Assembly: GCA_025093555.1 (NCBI GenBank)
Contig: JAIWNF010000054.1
Location: forward strand, 232,929 to 296,928
Length of the DNA stretch: 64,000 nucleotides
Direction: 5' to 3'
Origin: Circinella umbellata
Taxonomy: Eukaryota > Mucoromycota > Mucoromycetes > Mucorales > Lichtheimiaceae
Shown here: piece after piece, positions 37,801-48,002 of the stretch
How positions within the stretch are numbered: the first letter of the stretch is position 1
Layout: each line of letters opens with the position of its first letter
Notes under the pieces: generated by a model
The model's database searches: none
Seen by the model: the letters and a program-made list of their open reading frames with translations, nothing else
What the model was told of the DNA's origin: nothing
Program-made: the position numbers and the translations under genes

Positions 37801-40546
37801 CTCAAGTCTCCTGCAGCTCTTGAGGGATTGAGGTTGCAAATAGAGATTCAGATATTGCAATCAGTGAATATTAAAAAAAATGTCGTTTTTCGTTTAAAAA
37901 AACCAAATCTTTTATTGTCTGTGGTACTGTAACGGTGTTATTATTATGCTATTATTATTATATTACATTATTGATTGTTTATCACTATCACTATAATATT
38001 ACTGTATAATATGACTATCTTTATTATTATTTTCTAACTTAACCCTCGAACATATACGTAAAATCTGGAATTTACGGCTATATATATACACCTATTTTAT
38101 TATTATTAACAATATGTAAGTTACTTGATGATAAAGTTAACATGTTAATAGTGGCCTTTTTAATTTCAAATGCCAGGTGGGGTGGGTATAAAGTCTGGGA
38201 TGTCTGTTTTTTCTTCTCGTCAAAAAAAACACCAGACATAAGTTTTTTTAGTCCAGCACGAAATAATTTCCTTTGTTTTGAACTATCCCATACGTAATCC
38301 TCAACCTCCTCTTCGCAAAGATATTCATATAATATGTATTCAACAGGTCATGTCCTTGCCATTGCAATAGATCTCGGGAACGTTTTTCCCCCATGGATTA
38401 ATCACTTGTAGAAAAAATATATAATTCTTGGCCTCTTTTATTTATTTTTATATATCATCCATAATATTAGAAGAAATGTTCATCATTACTTGAAAAAAAT
38501 ACCAACGACAGAAGTATATAATATATTTATTATTATAAATTATCTTACCTTTATGTATAGCTTTAACTCCCAACGTATGGAAGCTATGGTATCGTGGATG
38601 TATAATTTTTTTCGTTGTTTATGAAATACACGGCGTCACGATATTTAATTAGCTAACTTCAACATGCCCTGAAGTGCTAAAAATCACGACTGTAGTAGTA
38701 ATAATGACATTAGTTAATAATGATCAAGAAAAGGATGATGTTGTTCGTGATGTTGAAGCATCGTGAATAAAATAACACGTAGTAGTATTGGATGGTGATA
38801 AAAAAAGATTGAGTATCGATCGTGATGTTGAAGGATGACGGATAAACTAATGGTTATCAGCATGGTGATATTGAATCATGATAAAGGAAAGAATTGTGTC
38901 TCAAGTTCAAAGATAACAAAGATGGTAGTGAAGATCAGAAATAAAAATAATTGATGGTATTAACTGGTAGTGTTGAAGAATAACGAATAAAATAAAATAA
39001 TAGCCACCGTAATAATGATATGCAATAATAATAAATTGTAATAAAATCATCATATATAAAAAACACCATCATCCTTTTTCTATTCGTACGTAACCCATTA
39101 TATACAACTAATCACCCATTAAATAACCCAAACCGTTTATGTTCCAACTCAACCGCTGTATAAAATAAAAGTTTATTATTACCAAGTTAGAACCGTCATA
39201 AAATAAAAGAACAACATACAAGTCTATCTTCATCTCAATTTCACAACAAGATTCCTACTAACCTTTTCATGACGATATAGAATTCGTTTAAATATTAAAA
39301 GATTAAATGATTAAGCAGATGTGTTGAGATCCATTCGTCCTTTGTTGGTGTATATATATATATATATATATATAGCTGTTTAGTTTATTACGGGACCGTA
39401 ATATTTTTTTTTCTTAGATTTTTCTGCTGCTATCCTTCATATAGACATTGTTCTCTTCTCGCTCATTTTCCATTGAAGATAAATAATATATGGAATGTAA
39501 TTTAACAGCTGACGATTGATTACAAATATAAAGAAAGAAAAAGAAAACGGTTGAAAAAAAGGAGGTTATTTTTATCAGAAATCATTTTTACGATTTTATA
39601 ATTTTCAGTAGCCGTGGGAATCTCAAAAAAAAGACTATTCTTTTTCTCAACACAAGCAGTTGGATGGATCACGGTGCATTTCAATGGAAAAGTGATCGAT
39701 TGAAATAAAACCAAGATGGATCTCAAGCTGAAGAATCAAGGAAAATGGATGAGTAAAAAAAATGATTTATGATATACAGTGAATGGGAGCAACTTTTATT
39801 CTATTTCTCTGATTGTTGATACGTACGTAAGATGCGGTAGCTAACATAATCGGCATAGAATGTATTAATAAGTAAATAGATCATGTTCTTGATAAGTAAA
39901 AGATGATCTTTAGTTTTACGCTAATAAAAAAAAGAATCATCGAGAATAAAAATAAACCAGTTGTGTTGGAAATAAACTGGAGCAGTAGTGTTTGATAATA
40001 TTAATAATGTTAGTCGTTATACATACTGAATAATATGGTGGTGACTAATTCTTTATTTTTACTGTATACTTCTTGCAATGCTCAGTAACTTTTGCTTGTA
40101 TTTTTATATGATATTGTTTTTGCTATCAAACTAGCAATTAAAAGTGAAAAGGGAAAATGTAATCAAGAAATAAAAAAGATAACATTTCGAAATTTGTTTT
40201 CTTTATTTATGTATCAGAAGAGCATATATATAAGATTGCCTCTTTACACTTTATTAAACTAAATACTGTATTTTTATATTTCATACGTACAGGAAGTAAC
40301 TGCTACATACCCAAAAAAAAGCAGTATAATACACATAAAAAAGTACATAAATCAAATTAAAATGGTTTCACTATGTAAAAAGATTCTATATCGCACATTA
40401 AGAAAGAGTGTAATTGTGCATAATACTGATATAGAAAATTAATATCTTACCCACAAAGGCCAACAGTAAGAAGTGAAAGTTCGCATTATATTCCTAGGCG
40501 CCGGCATAGTGAGCACTATTCCATTCCTTTGATATACCATGAATAA
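37801..40546. other. 2.7 kb of AT-rich DNA without a gene
   Basis: Holds degenerate gatgttga/gtgataa-type repeats around 38740-38960, a (TA)n run at 39350-39375, and no frame with a recognisable domain. It is the left flank of the KDZ element. Confidence 0.5.
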
Positions 40547-40754
40547 CACCTAATTTATAAAGATAGCTCGATCCTAAACCTAATATGCTCTCTGATTGAA
40601 TGGCGGGTTTGGGACCAGAAAAATTCAAAAAATTAACCGTCACTTTTGTTCCTGTCTGCATTACAATTTGGTTGCCCAGAATAAACTATAATTCTTTCTC
40701 CTTCTTCTTTTTTTTTTACTGCCATATTTTTTAAATCGCTCCATCTTCGAAATG
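40547..40754 (+). repeat. Left terminal inverted repeat of the KDZ element, with promoter role
   Basis: 208 bp matching the complement of 47796-48002. It ends exactly at TTCGAAATG, where ATG (40752-40754) starts the plus-strand gene; identity with the other repeat stops right after that ATG. A TTATAAAG box near 40555 is a possible TATA element. Confidence 0.93.
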
Positions 40755-41900
40755 AATGAACAAGTCGACCCTCAAACTATCCTAACACGCTACTCTGAGC
40801 TCAGAAGCAAAGCTGGAAATCTTTCATCTGATGAACAACTTGAGTTTGTACAGGTTGCGGACTGGTGTATTAAGATAGCAGTTCAGGGGTTTCAGCAACT
40901 TCAACGGCCAACGGTGGAAACGGGAACAGAAGCACAAACAGGAGGAAGTATGCTTAATAACGAAGAAGAGGATATCCATAACCCAGAGATGGATAAAAAC
41001 CAAGAATTAGCTGACAATCTTGTTGAGCAAGCTAAAGAAAAACTTGAAAATGCAAAATGGGACATTGTGGATAGATGTAGTTTTCCAATCGAAAAGGTCG
41101 AGAGAATGTTTGGGAGTACGGTTGTGAAGCTATTCTCCCATTCAAAAGCTCATAATACATGGACTCACTTTGTTTATGAAAAGCGAAAAGAGCTTGCAGG
41201 TAAATGAAACGAAGTAATATATGACGAGTTTTCATAATATCAGATAATTAATGTACTAACGTTTGAAATGAAAAGCCAAATATGATGTTGATAATCCAGA
41301 TATATCAAAATCTCACCAAAATGATAAGATAAAGGTAGCTTGGGTAAATAAAGAAGTTGGAAGAGCTTATAATGCAGTCAAAGCAGATAAAAATGAGTTC
41401 AAGGCACTGGAAGATCGAACAAAATCCTATAATAAGGCAAACGGGATGTCTGGTAAAGTTGATGATATGACAGAGAAGCAGAAGAAGATGATGGCAGAGG
41501 ATACGATTGAAATTTTACGCAAAAATGTTCAACGTGTTAAGGAATTGACAGGACTTGAATCTCTAGTCATATTTGGTTCTCCAAAATACCGCAGCGGTTG
41601 GAAACTGCGTCGCGTCGCAACAGGTAAGCACTGTTTATAATATAAAGTGCATTATTTTGATATATGCGTATGTACATGTACTTTTTAGATCTTGGAATTC
41701 AATTTATGGATGAAATGAATGCAAAGAGCAACTCTGATAGTAACTTATATGCGTTGCAAGAACGATTTGACTATTTTTGCAAACCCCCGGCTTTTGACAC
41801 ATCCGTGTTAAGCAACAAAAGGACACGTATGTGTAATTATAAAAAAATAGGAAATGATGATATTATTCTGACACATGTTTTATTTTAGGCACGTCCCAAT
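40752..41900 (+). CDS. KDZ-associated accessory protein, possible HMG-like domain
   Basis: Four exons with GT-AG introns join in frame to a 315-residue protein: 40752-41199, 41276-41623, 41689-41826 and 41887-41900 (TAA). No stop or shift, so it looks intact. The first 80 residues are helical and acidic. Around residues 135-215, AHNTWTHFVYEKRKELA, DNPDIS, IKVAWVNKEVGRAYNAVK and NEFKALEDR have the spacing of an HMG box (N-x-F-x-x-F, W, Y), though weakly. The rest is charged and helical (VDDMTEKQKKMMAEDTIEIL). Its ATG lies on the inner edge of the inverted repeat. A DNA-binding helper for transposition is a guess from context; the family is unknown to me. Confidence 0.75.
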
Positions 41901-44460
41901 AAATCGTAACCTTGGTTGATATTTTGATAACCAATATATTTCTTTACATCCTTTCACATTTTTATTTATTTATACGTATTTAGTTTGTAATTTCATGATG
42001 AAGTTAGTTCAGTAGTAACAAATCCTATATTTTTAATGTTGAAGTATATATCTAGCAAGTGACGCTAAACTGTTTTGGAATTACAGAACAATGTTCTTCT
42101 TTTTGCATCTATAAGATAAGTATACACGTGTTCCACCGTAAAGACACCCATAGCGTTTATGTAGACCGAATATGTATTGATAGATAGATGTAATATTACA
42201 ATATGATGGAAAATAGGAAAAACGGTATTAGATGATGCTTTTTTTTCAACACTTTGAATAAAAATTATAAATACAACTACAATGTTTTTGTGATCTATTA
42301 TTGTTTAGTATCTGAATTTGTATCAATATATTATATGATACATTGCAAAATAAACACACCATAACCATTTTAAATTGTCAATCACCAGTTTATTACGCAT
42401 TTACGTAGTGTAATATACCAACAATGTATTAGAGATGTTCTCTATTATTGAATAACACTCCTGTATTTTTATTTATAATTATCATGATGCTACTTATAAA
42501 ATAACAAAATTTATTAAAGTATTACTTAAGGCGATACATAGAATCGTATTCTATTAGACTTTATTTTTTATGTATCCACTGATACATACATGAAAGCAGA
42601 TACGTAAACAGTTTGTGCGGTATTATATCCTAGATAAGACACTGAAGATAGTGTAAGCTGTATGTTGTAACATTATAGCTGTCATACGTATCGATAGAAA
42701 ATAAACATGAAAGAACAAGAGTGTAGATAACAAAGCAATTTTTATGAGAACGGATAGTTTCATATAACGTAGCGTAATAAAAGATACTTTTCTAATCAGA
42801 AACAAGTCTGTGTTAATATTCTTTAATACAAAATTCTTTTTCTGCTGTATTTTTTATTTATTATATACGTAATATCAGTATTGTAATTATCTAAGGATAA
42901 AATCCATTTATGATATCACAATTATTATGTTCCAATAGGACCAACAGAACCAGTTATCAAAAATAGATAGATCAAGTGTTACAATGTGCAGGTAAATTTA
43001 ACTTGGATACCTAAGAGCCCACGTAGAAATTATAAAAAAAACATTGATTACATGTAATTATCAATTAGAATATAAAATAGATATAAACAAGAAACCTTTC
43101 TTTCTTGAGTAAATATTCAGTTGTCTAATACAATATTTTAGTTCACTTACTCTTATTTTCCATTTCTTCCCACAGCAACAGGATTGCTTATTCATTGCTT
43201 TATTGATTATCAACTTAGCCAGATTCTCTTATTCTTATATTTTTCTTATAAGTTACGTATTTAGTATAACTTATTCCTTTTCCTGTAGTCATATCATTAT
43301 TGATTATTTTTCTAACATGATATGGACAGATGCATATGCCGGACAGATTCTATCGACAAGAATATATATTTATTTTTCTATACAAAAGAGATATATTTGA
43401 AAGTTGTTTGACTTAGAGTATGTCTACACACTGAAATATTATTATATCGGCTTTATTCGATGTATTTTGAAGAAAAGCAATTGATGTATTTATTGTATTT
43501 GGTTTAAGTCAGTAAATAATTATCCATGAGCCATGGTTATAACAATAAAATTACTGTAGTAATAATTATGATAAAAGAATATTTATTATAGATGAAATAC
43601 ACGCGTAGTTCTGAATAATGATTCATAAAGAAAAGAAACTGATATATGTTCACATAATACATAGCAACAAAAATTAGGCTACACACTATTACATATTCTT
43701 GGATTAATAATAATATACTCTCCTGGAATGGTACGTAATAGTAATAAATAGTATATATAACACAGTTTGATTGAATTATAATAATATACGTACCATCAGG
43801 CATACTATTTATATTTAATTGGCTTCTAAAATTATAGATACGTACGATGCATAAAGATAGCTTTTATCGAGACACATGTATGACAGCTGTTGCTCTATAA
43901 ATAAGTTAATTAAATGTTTAGATACATAATGGATAGAAATAAGTATAATTTGATCTATAAAAAAAAGAAACCCTACTGTTCAAGTTTCTACATATTTATA
44001 CGTGACGTCTGATAAATTCTCGCTAGCATTCTAATATGTATCTCAAAATTGTTATTATTTCTAGGTATGTTAATTGGTTTATATATATTCCTTCACATTA
44101 AATATTACAGTAGACGACTGTAAGTTAGATACATCCAATTTGATTTGTATATAACATTAAGTACACTAAATTAGCATATTTAATTTATTGTCTTTTAAAA
44201 GCGTAGTAATTATTCTATCAAGTTATATAAAGAAAACGGAAGAGCAATAATTAAAAAAAAGTATTGAGAATAATATTGAATAATAATATTAAATAGTAAT
44301 AATAAATAATAATAGTATGTATGTTGTAAAATGAAACAGTAATTGAGAAGTGAAATAGGGGTAGAGTTGGTACAGAATAAGAATATGTAAAATTAACAAC
44401 AGATACTTTTATATGTTTAATTTGAAGAATTGTATTCATGAGGTAGCATTTGTACCCACA
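41901..44460. other. Non-coding middle of the KDZ element, rich in ACGTA words
   Basis: 2.56 kb with no supported gene. TACGTA, ACGTA or TACGT words recur (for example near 41974, 42397, 42601, 42683, 42768, 42866, 43018, 43253, 43732, 43789, 43842). Both genes end facing this stretch. Confidence 0.5.
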
Positions 44461-47400
44461 TTATTCCATATCTTCATTTTCGGTAAGTTGTTCTGGTTGG
44501 GCGAGTAAACTAATTATTGAAGCTATATCATCATCATCGTCATCATCTGTGGTCGTATTCAAATCGACTTCAGAAGTTTCCATATCAATATTGACATGAT
44601 CGACCTCCACAGGCAATTGTTGTTCGTTATCAATGCCGTTTGCATCTATATAGTATTTTTCAAATACTTTAACATCAACAGCCACATCGTCAGGTTCCCC
44701 ATCCGATACCACCTGGAAAAGTAGATCACTTTGTCTTATAAACAGGTGGTGAACATTTTCCACTTTATGCTTCAACAACGTTTTTACACCTCGTTCCTCA
44801 AATTCGTTATTGTAACTATGCATATTATTCATTGCAAAACGTAATGCTGTAATTTGTTCTGAAAAAAACCGAGTGACATTTATGGCATCTTTCTATTAAA
44901 TATCAAAGATGTTAAAAGATGTACAATATATACATATAAAGACATAAAAAGTAATATCAAAACAAACCTTAAGCATGTACAACTCTTCAGTTGCTCTTTC
45001 ACGAAGATGCATTGCAAGGTATGGGCGTCCTTCATTACCTAAAATATTGCACTCTCGACGAAAGGCGCTCTCTTTTTTCAAAATATCTTTTGTGATAAGT
45101 GCTATGTAAAGAACAATTGTAATAATAAGTATCTAGACTGTGATATTTAATTTAAGTAGCTTTCATGTAAGTACTAGATACTATACGTGATGTAGGATTA
45201 TTGTTGTTGTATTCCTGGACAATATTGTCCACTTTCTTTAAAGCTTTACTAAGCTGTACTTGCATCTCCATTGCCCGTTTATTACCTATCAAAGGTAAAC
45301 AAAAAGTATTATTACATATTCTTTAGGTCTTGCTCTTATAAGATAAAACGTATAATATGTACCTAACCGTCCTCCATGCATGACTTCATTAAAACAATCA
45401 TATGCTAAAACTGCTGCGCGTAATTTATCTTTTTCGTTCATTCTTCGGCTTCTCATATTCGAACTTCTACCTTCAATAGTACCATACTTAAATTCTTCCC
45501 AATGGCGGGCTAATTCTTCAACGTCAATTCTGCGTAGCTTGTCATTCGAATCTTTAAGTATGTTTTTAGCTTTACCATACTTTTTGAAAATAATTCGTCC
45601 TATAAAATTTAAAAGAGTCAGTATTAAATTTTACTTCATTGTGGTAGAAGCAGATCATAATAATTACCAAGTGATTCAATTTTTGCTCGTGATAATGATC
45701 CGTAAGAATAGTAAAAAAAAGATGACGATTATATTCTGTCATATATCGAGTTGCAGTCACAAATGGAGAGCAAACACTCCAGTACCTGTAGCATCAAAAG
45801 GATAGTTTAGTTAAACGAATAAAAAACTGCTTTAATAAAAATGAAAAAAAAAAAAGATTGAATATTCTATAAAACATGAAATCTAATTGTTGCGTTTTTT
45901 GCTTTTAATACCTCTCACAATCTTCACCATCCACTAATCCAATTCCTTTGACAACTTTTGGATTAAATGGCACCTGGCATGGAGCATCATGACCATAAAC
46001 GTGAAAGGCACCAATGGCACGAGGGACATTTGCTAGATCGGATAATTGAGGAGTGTGCTTTATACAATATATGTATTAGAATCATCAATCTTTATAAATA
46101 ACTACGATTAGTGATATTACCTTTAATCCTTTTCCCATTTTACATGCCACATCATATAATATTGCAATGTTATTTCCATATGTGTTTTTAATCTGATATA
46201 AAACACTCAATGAAAAGAATGACGGGAGCACATTGCCATGAATACACCAGTAGTAGGGACAGACTTTCTTTTTATACCAGTTTTCGATAATGACTTCCAT
46301 CCATCACAAGCAATATTATCATAGTTATATGATCTTTGTGTTGTAAGTTGAATCGAATCATTAGATAAACTAAATTCAGTCCTAACATTTGTAACAGATG
46401 ATTGTGGCTGCTTCATGAATAAGTATATTAGTCTTTTGACATACCCATTAAAAAATGTAATTACGTAGTAATAATCTTATTCGTCTTACTTTATTTCCAG
46501 GTGATAATATATTAGTATTTGCTTTCCACAAGGTATTCACAGTTTCTGCACATGGATCATTAACAAAAGAGTGCGAAGTTTGATCTAATCTTTTTAATTG
46601 GAAGTTTCCATCTAAAGAAACCGGAACCATTAGGCCCTCCGATGCCTTTACGATTTAGTTAGAATATATAAGATATTTGGTTTATAATATAACGAATCAA
46701 TAACTACCATGTAATCACAGAACGGGCATCTTCCCCGGGCTAATTTGCAAAATCCATTTATGTGGTCATCAACAAGCAGCTTAAACTTAGAGTAATTGAG
46801 TAATGCATGATACAGTGTATTTCTTAATGTAGCAGGGAGGTCCTAACATAAAACTTAAATGAGCTTTCGACCTTATGCAATTTACTCTCACTATACAAAT
46901 CTTACAGTCTGATCATAATCCGCCTTCATTAATTCAGCAATACTGTTAATAGGTGCACGAGCATATAATCTAACATTGTTATAGCAACGAAGTACATCAA
47001 TATGTATCGCAATCTTTGTATCAGTCGGTGTGGTCGGAAAAAGTTGTTTTTCGAGCAACACGACTGGAAGAGAGCGAGATCCATCTGGACAATTGTCACA
47101 AAACGAAATGTCATGTTTACGTACACCTGTATTCCAATTTTTTTATTATCCTTAATCTTATTGCCCTTGGCATACCCTACTATCTCTCTGTCCCATAACA
47201 TCTAATTTTTTATTGCTATTGTACTCCACAAATGCTTTATCCAATTCATTGAACTACACATACCACATTTGAAAATACACACAACAGTTGCGGTTTTTTT
47301 CACGATACAACTACACTCAAATGTCGCTGGAGGATCTAATGTAGTAATATCAATATCGTTTTGACCAATACCACGAAAATATGCGTCTCTTAGCTTTGGA

Positions 47401-47798
47401 AGCAATTTAGCCCATTCTTCATCCAAAATTGTCTTTCTATTGTAACGTCGTTGTGCCCTTGGGAGTCTCTGACGCGTCTGTTGAGGAGTTGAGTTATCCT
47501 CTACGTCAGCATATCCTTCTTGTTCATTATTATGGGTATTACCATCGCCATAATCATAATCGTCAGTTCCAAAATCTTCAAAATAACAATCAGAACGGCT
47601 GTTTTGGGATTCCAGGACCATTTCTCGTGAATGTTGAGACTCACGGTCCACAGTTAGAGGTTGCTGTTGTTGCTGTTGTCGTCTACGTCGCTGACGTTCC
47701 CGTTCTCTTTCGCGACTAGTGCTCCGCTTCATACGCTTCGACCCGTTGGCGACAATACTTATCTACTCAGCACTGCTATCCGAATTATATAAAGACAT
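44461..47798 (-). pseudogene. KDZ transposase, few disabling changes
   Basis: Eleven exons: 47264-47798, 46906-47126, 46708-46842, 46490-46645, 46121-46410, 45912-46057, 45668-45785, 45363-45599, about 45194-45285, 44968-45101 and 44461-44892. A Cys cluster (FECSCIVKKTATVVCIFKCG...ISFCDNC) is followed by PFCDYM and the RNase H-fold core: VPVSLDGNFQLKRL (Asp), VACKMGKGLK after ILYD (Asp), then YGHDAPCQVPFNP and GLVDGEDCERYWS (Glu). An Asp-rich tail ends it. Faults: TAG at 47763 between the repeat-edge ATG (47798) and an internal Met at 47732; one missing base in a T-run near 46208; another in a T-run near 45715. These are the signatures of Kyakuja-Dileera-Zisupton transposases. Starting at 47732 would avoid the TAG. 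Confidence 0.9.
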
Positions 47799-48002
47799 TT
47801 CGAAGATGGAGCGATTTAAAAAATATGGCAGTAAAAAAAAAGAAAAAGGAGAAAGAATTATAGTTTATTCTGGGCAACCAAATTGTAATGCAGACAGGAA
47901 CAAAAGTGACGGTTAATTTTTTGAATTTTTCTGGTCCCAAACCCGCCATTCGATCAGAGAGCATATTAGGTTTAGGATCGAGCTATCTTTATAAATTAGG
48001 TG
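47796..48002 (-). repeat. Right terminal inverted repeat of the KDZ element, with promoter role
   Basis: 207 bp, complement of the left repeat. On the minus strand it too ends in TTCGAAATG, and this ATG (47796-47798) is in frame with the transposase start at 47732 (22 codons apart, one TAG between). Confidence 0.93.

Follow-up and report, generated by a model that had tools for sequence, protein, structure and literature searches.

A described design for a DNA transposon with two convergent genes is that of maize MuDR, whose terminal inverted repeats (TIRs) of about 215 bp hold the gene promoters and a transposase-binding site, and whose transcription starts lie at about +165 and just internal to TIRA, according to the accessible parts of two reports (PMC3440606, PMC3310237). 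The element considered here is a KDZ DNA transposon of 7.46 kb from the fungus Circinella umbellata. A single copy lies at positions 40547-48002 of a 64,000-nucleotide stretch of contig JAIWNF010000054.1 (assembly GCA_025093555.1, positions 232,929 to 296,928), and this whole stretch is referred to below as the window. Each TIR of the element ends on the ATG of one of two convergent genes, one encoding the transposase and the other an accessory protein of 315 residues (the partner), and in a diverged copy the two ends have changed together up to two bases before the ATG. It is probable that a two-part repeat drives both genes and that recombination from end to end keeps the ends alike.

Several other elements offer points of comparison, here limited to the accessible parts of the papers concerned. 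The Kyakuja families of Laccaria have 7-bp target site duplications (TSDs) and 5'-CA..TG-3' termini, carry a TET/JBP dioxygenase and are described as being without TIRs (PMC12730594). The C. umbellata subfamily resembles them in its CA..TG ends and its 7-bp TSD, the latter perfect in three of its five two-ended copies, and differs from them in its TIRs of 207-208 bp and in its partner without Pfam match. Since the absence of TIRs does not hold for it, no subgroup placement is made. The Cryptococcus elements KDZ1, KDZ2 and KDZ3 also combine a KDZ transposase with long TIRs, of 241, 139 and 169 bp, respectively; they differ in their TSDs of 8 bp or 4-8 bp, and the accessible text mentions neither a TIR promoter nor a convergent second gene (PMC12810828). 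The same text mentions a CpG lying about 900 bp ahead of the transposase start in KDZ1, which suggests that this start is not at the TIR edge. Zisupton copies from Pristionchus have TIRs, with no TSD detected (PMC9297572). No description of KDZ TIRs ending on start codons was found in the accessible literature, including the available parts of PMC12730594, PMC9297572, PMC12810828 and PMC12477816.

The general design of the C. umbellata element, with convergent genes and long terminal repeats, is that of MuDR, and the repeats may serve as promoters here as well. It differs in having a transposase of another superfamily and a repeat whose last codon is the start codon. In MuDR, the start codons lie outside the repeats and the target duplication is 9 bp long. 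Convergent genes driven from TIRs have their precedent in MuDR; within the literature accessible to us, what is new is to find a MuDR-like layout in a KDZ element and to find the start codon included in the repeat.

Terminal repeats that end on start codons

The repeats and their parts are as follows.

40547..40754, + strand: left terminal inverted repeat, 208 bp, starting CACCTAAT and ending TTCGAAATG
47796..48002, - strand: right terminal inverted repeat, 207 bp, with ATG 47798-47796 as its last codon
40547..40665, + strand: outer part of the left repeat (about 119 bp), common to the element on contig C192, proposed transposition end
40666..40754, + strand: inner part of the left repeat (89 bp), with a 26-nt pyrimidine tract, leader and ATG, proposed promoter and leader
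40539..40546, no strand: left flank, without target duplication

As the preliminary description of this DNA had stated, with coordinates that proved right, the two repeats are nearly identical (2 mismatches and one 1-bp indel), and on both sides their identity extends through the G of TTCGAAATG and then ceases. Over the first 30 bases past the ATG, left and right match at 6/30 positions in the type represented by the window copy and the copy on contig C35, and at 7/30 in the diverged copy on C168, both of which are chance level. The element DNA upstream of each ATG amounts to 204-205 bp and is entirely repeat. Two earlier ATGs occur in the left repeat, at positions 39 and 54, which a transcription start within the inner part would avoid. 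Five pure pyrimidine or purine runs of at least 20 nt are present in the whole window, the 26-nt tract of the inner part among them.

The element has the ends of a KDZ-superfamily transposon, here CACC...GGTG with 7-bp target duplications. The window insertion itself has no TSD, and 56 bp of target are missing at 40546/48003, between the left flank and the right flank (48003 on), as judged from two empty sites of the same repeat on C189 and C33. Between the convergent 3' ends of the two genes lie about 2.5 kb of AT-rich DNA (41903-44460), in which no gene was evident by eye, no gene search having been made.

Copies of the subfamily elsewhere in the genome

The genome searched comprises 50.8 Mb in 210 contigs, after which the copies are named here. 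The left end gave 26 matches and the right end 41, many of which correspond to the flanking repeat. Both ends are present at five places: C161 (the window), C35, C135, C129 and C168. An assembly artefact is ruled out, the structure being found at these five places on different contigs with different flanks. In all five, the two ends cease to resemble each other at the ATG, as the preliminary description expected of every copy. Because the copies are related, this edge counts as one inherited state and not as five events. Perfect 7-bp TSDs flank three of the five, C35 (TAATTTG), C135 (CTAAGAA) and C129 (CTAATAT); that of C168 is imperfect. The C135 copy (L010, L011; C135:16348-29283) spans 12.9 kb versus 7.5 kb and has about 5.4 kb of other DNA inside.

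A single end with its ATG in place is found at four more places, as a right end on C210 and C182 and as a left end on C67 and C79, the outermost part of the latter two being replaced. The C127 copy retains sequence around the right ATG, and C155 has lost leader and ATG.

Concerted change between the two ends

The diverged copy on C168 carries the main evidence that the ends do not evolve independently. Taking the left repeat of C35 as reference, in an alignment with cheap gaps, the C168 left repeat differs at 18/202 sites and the C168 right repeat at 16/176, a divergence of about 9%, while the two C168 ends differ from each other at 2/178. Over the 176 sites present in both, the C168 ends have 14 substitutions in common, and they also share a 2-bp insertion; private substitutions number two per end, one of which, at -75, lies at a gap edge. 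When 16 + 16 changes were placed at random, 0.48 were shared on average and at most 4 in 20,000 trials. The innermost change common to both ends lies at -2, two bases before the ATG, and six of the shared substitutions fall between -73 and -2, as does the 2-bp insertion. To judge from these alignments, copying between the two ends has taken place since the C35 and C168 lineages split and has extended right up to the ATG, and the homogenisation assumed in the preliminary description is borne out.

The likeness of the ends could also result from recent transposition or from functional constraint alone, with no exchange between them. The ends of C161, C35 and C135, which are nearly identical and young, would fit such a scenario. 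It is nevertheless highly improbable given C168, with its 14 shared substitutions and one shared insertion against two private changes at each end. Moreover, constraint alone would not make the two ends agree letter for letter in the leader, which is the more variable segment: between C35 and C168, the outer part differs at 9/119 and 8/119 sites, and the inner part at 9/80 and 8/54, with the indels falling in the inner part.

A sister family and related elements

The transposase domain PF18758 has 73 matches in the genome, which are counted exon by exon and are therefore not elements. The most informative relative is a sister family represented on C206 by one two-ended copy of about 13 kb, with a homologous transposase and partner in convergent orientation, CACCTAAT ends and a perfect 7-bp TSD (CATTCAG). 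Its repeats are 168 bp long with 2 mismatches (169 bp in the raw alignment, which includes the last TSD base), and their edge lies 32 bp short of the partner start and 57 bp short of the transposase ATG. Past a gap, a further common block of 15 bp ends about 19 and 12 bp before the two starts. The partner start codon is ATA in C206 and ATG in C43 and C48. As far as the aligned sequences go, repeats running towards both start codons are recurrent, and the ATG edge is particular to the subfamily of the window. The expectation that identity always stops at the ATG is therefore upheld within this subfamily and fails in C206.

A third KDZ family (C24, C6, C28, C45 and C33) begins with CACCTAACC, its C24 member (L050) starting at C24:897476, and its ATG lies, by reading, about 210 bp in. 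A search with this end gave six matches, one per contig, and no inverted partner, the contigs C24, C6 and C28 ending 1.5-3 kb past their transposase matches. Inverted partners sought in regions of C24, C202, C127, C35:234k, C155, C79 and C67 amounted to pairs of 25-37 nt matching at 70-80%; several of the seven regions are cut off by a contig end or have decayed, and they say little on the edge. With C206 stopping short and no inverted partner in the third family, the ATG edge does not stand as a general rule.

The element on C192 (L020, L021; C192:89359-99153) is 9.8 kb long and has a perfect 7-bp TSD (TTAATCT), with ends like those of the subfamily over about 119 bp only. The PF18758 genome search found no KDZ match inside it. 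Because it inserted with a perfect TSD while having only the outer part, the inner part is seemingly unneeded in cis for insertion. An element of a different kind may be nested within the KDZ ends of C192 or be carried by them. A frame of 681 codons with a GCM-motif match (E 1.9e-5) is found between these ends, together with a frame of 349 codons whose ubiquitin-hydrolase match is under its cut-off.

A repeat that may control both genes

These data suggest a repeat in two parts, of which the outer 119 bp or so would be the cis signal for transposition and the inner 89 bp or so a promoter and leader ending on the start codon. The repeat would drive both the transposase and the 315-residue partner, because it is the sole element DNA upstream of both: with only 204-205 bp, all repeat, ahead of each ATG, an upstream promoter borne by the element must lie in the repeat and be alike for the two genes. 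Recombination between the ends, whether gene conversion or template switching in post-excision repair, would keep them alike within each copy, so that both genes would keep the same upstream control, and co-expression may benefit the element. Copying would go no further than the ATG, the point at which homology runs out, and selection would act against any spread of it into the unrelated coding sequences.

The preliminary interpretation is partly supported on the whole. It had proposed that shared control explains where homogenisation stops, a step that falls: conversion depends on homology, which the two unrelated coding regions do not offer, so that no special cause is needed. What calls for an explanation is instead the origin of a repeat that extends as far as the ATG.

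A more passive origin of the edge would be that an ancestral duplication, or an end-to-end copying event, chanced to end at the ATG. Homogenisation would then be real, the shared leader would be without regulatory value, and the long repeats would be kept solely for transposase binding. The inheritance of one edge by five copies, the different edge of C206 and the fact that conversion acts only where homology exists all agree with this. It is nonetheless rather unlikely: the inner part seems dispensable for C192 insertion, yet the C168 ends share inner changes (six substitutions and the 2-bp insertion), and the ATGs have no other element DNA upstream.

Several observations count against a repeat that drives both genes and is maintained by exchange between the ends. 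The exact ATG edge represents a single inherited state at five related places, and it is not kept in the sister family on C206. The evidence for a promoter (the pyrimidine tract and TATA-like words) is weak, and the sharing of a promoter is read from sequence. Copying would have to be patchy, because the two ends of C129 (L012) differ at four sites, having four changes relative to C35 at both ends and four more at the right end only. Two blocks of the inner part, 37 bp in total, are absent from the right repeat of C168. Seven of the 14 changes shared by the C168 ends also occur at the right end of C129, so that either lineage may have changed at those sites; the argument for exchange needs only that both C168 ends changed together. 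The mobilisation of C192 by the transposase of this family is an assumption. Finally, the transposase gene of the window copy is broken, which means that selection cannot act through it, and in C135, too, transposase exon 1 is interrupted by a stop, at codon 40.

Control of both genes from the repeat, if correct, provides a concrete model, open to testing, of how expression is controlled in KDZ elements. A bolder formulation, whose chances are put a little short of even, is that each repeat is a self-homogenising expression cassette: a transposition end, promoter, leader and start codon in about 207 bp, present twice and locking the dose ratio of transposase to partner over evolution. Any promoter change would then reach both genes together through exchange between the ends. 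In this subfamily, concerted evolution between the ends of a DNA transposon can also be followed in a clean natural example, whose limit at the start codon is defined to the base. Should a maize Mutator element and a fungal KDZ element, members of unrelated superfamilies, have arrived at one design, this would indicate that selection for co-expressing transposase and partner acted convergently.

The transposase gene

The right ATG is the likely start of the following gene.

44461..47798, - strand: KDZ transposase gene, 11 exons, broken in the window copy (GT-AG model without transcript support)
47798-47264, 47126-46906, 46842-46708, 46645-46490, 46407-46121, 46057-45912, - strand: transposase exons 1-6
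45785-45668, 45599-45363, 45285-45182, 45132-44968, 44892-44461, - strand: transposase exons 7-11
47763..47765, - strand: TAG at transposase codon 12, unique to the window among the copies compared

The model was built on the C35 copy, where GT-AG splicing yields a clean protein of 861 residues with the KDZ domain PF18758 (E 5e-45, 154.3 bits versus a cut-off of 26.6). For the CxC cysteine cluster that accompanies the domain in this superfamily, the C35 protein gave a CxC2 match (E 7.1e-5, 23.4 bits) under the cut-off of 27, and MULE, the criterion for Mutator/MuDR, is absent among its four Pfam matches at E up to 1. None of the four public-protein matches is a C. umbellata model of this transposase, the C. 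umbellata protein P0009 being another KDZ protein. The window copy matches PF18758 above the cut-off in the genome search; relative to C35 it has a 49-bp gap in exon 5 and a 1-bp gap in exon 7. The right ATG opens just 11 codons in the window; other copies are open at codon 12. The preliminary statement that the right ATG is in frame with the transposase accordingly holds for the family, as represented by C35, and not for a working gene in the window, whose broken copy cannot make a transposase from this ATG.

In the window, an in-frame ATG follows at codon 23, and the transposase might start there (Met23) or further in, in which case the repeat ATG would matter for the partner only. Besides the closure of the window frame at codon 12, the C155 copy, without leader and ATG, is compatible with such a start. 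It is improbable given the substitutions in codons 1-23, for which the nonsynonymous and synonymous divergences (dN and dS) are 0.116 and 0.539 against C168, 0.164 and 0.692 against C155 (21 codons), and 0.079 and 0.425 against C127 (22 codons). Because dN/dS is about 0.2 in these three comparisons of 21-23 codons, the repeat ATG is the likely start, and the ratios indicate purifying selection on the coding sequence from the first codons on. In addition, the stretch before Met23 resembles the sister family and the C. minor protein P0007, whose frames begin upstream.

The accessory gene

The left ATG opens the partner gene, with the following exons.

40752..41199, + strand: exon 1, with ATG 40752-40754 as the last codon of the left repeat
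41276..41623, + strand: exon 2
41689..41826, + strand: exon 3, end read from the sequence, in agreement with P0001
41889..41902, + strand: exon 4 and stop, read from the sequence, in agreement with P0001, for a total of 315 residues

The public C. umbellata gene model P0001 has the same start and the same length and is 99% identical to the partner over its full length, which confirms the 315-residue gene proposed at the outset. The MNEQVD start is common to the partner, P0001 and three of the four C. minor matches (P0002, P0003 and P0005, not P0006); the other C. umbellata match, P0004, begins further in. The C67 copy has stops in exon 1, at codons 38 and 51. For exon 1, dN and dS are 0.079 and 0.283 against C168, 0.090 and 0.336 against C67, and 0.062 and 0.180 against C79. 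The protein matched no Pfam family (best E 0.2), and a resemblance to HMG boxes was rejected as a claim, no Pfam HMG model having matched. An AlphaFold2 prediction from 6 sequences consists entirely of helices, with a mean predicted local distance difference test (pLDDT) score of 44.

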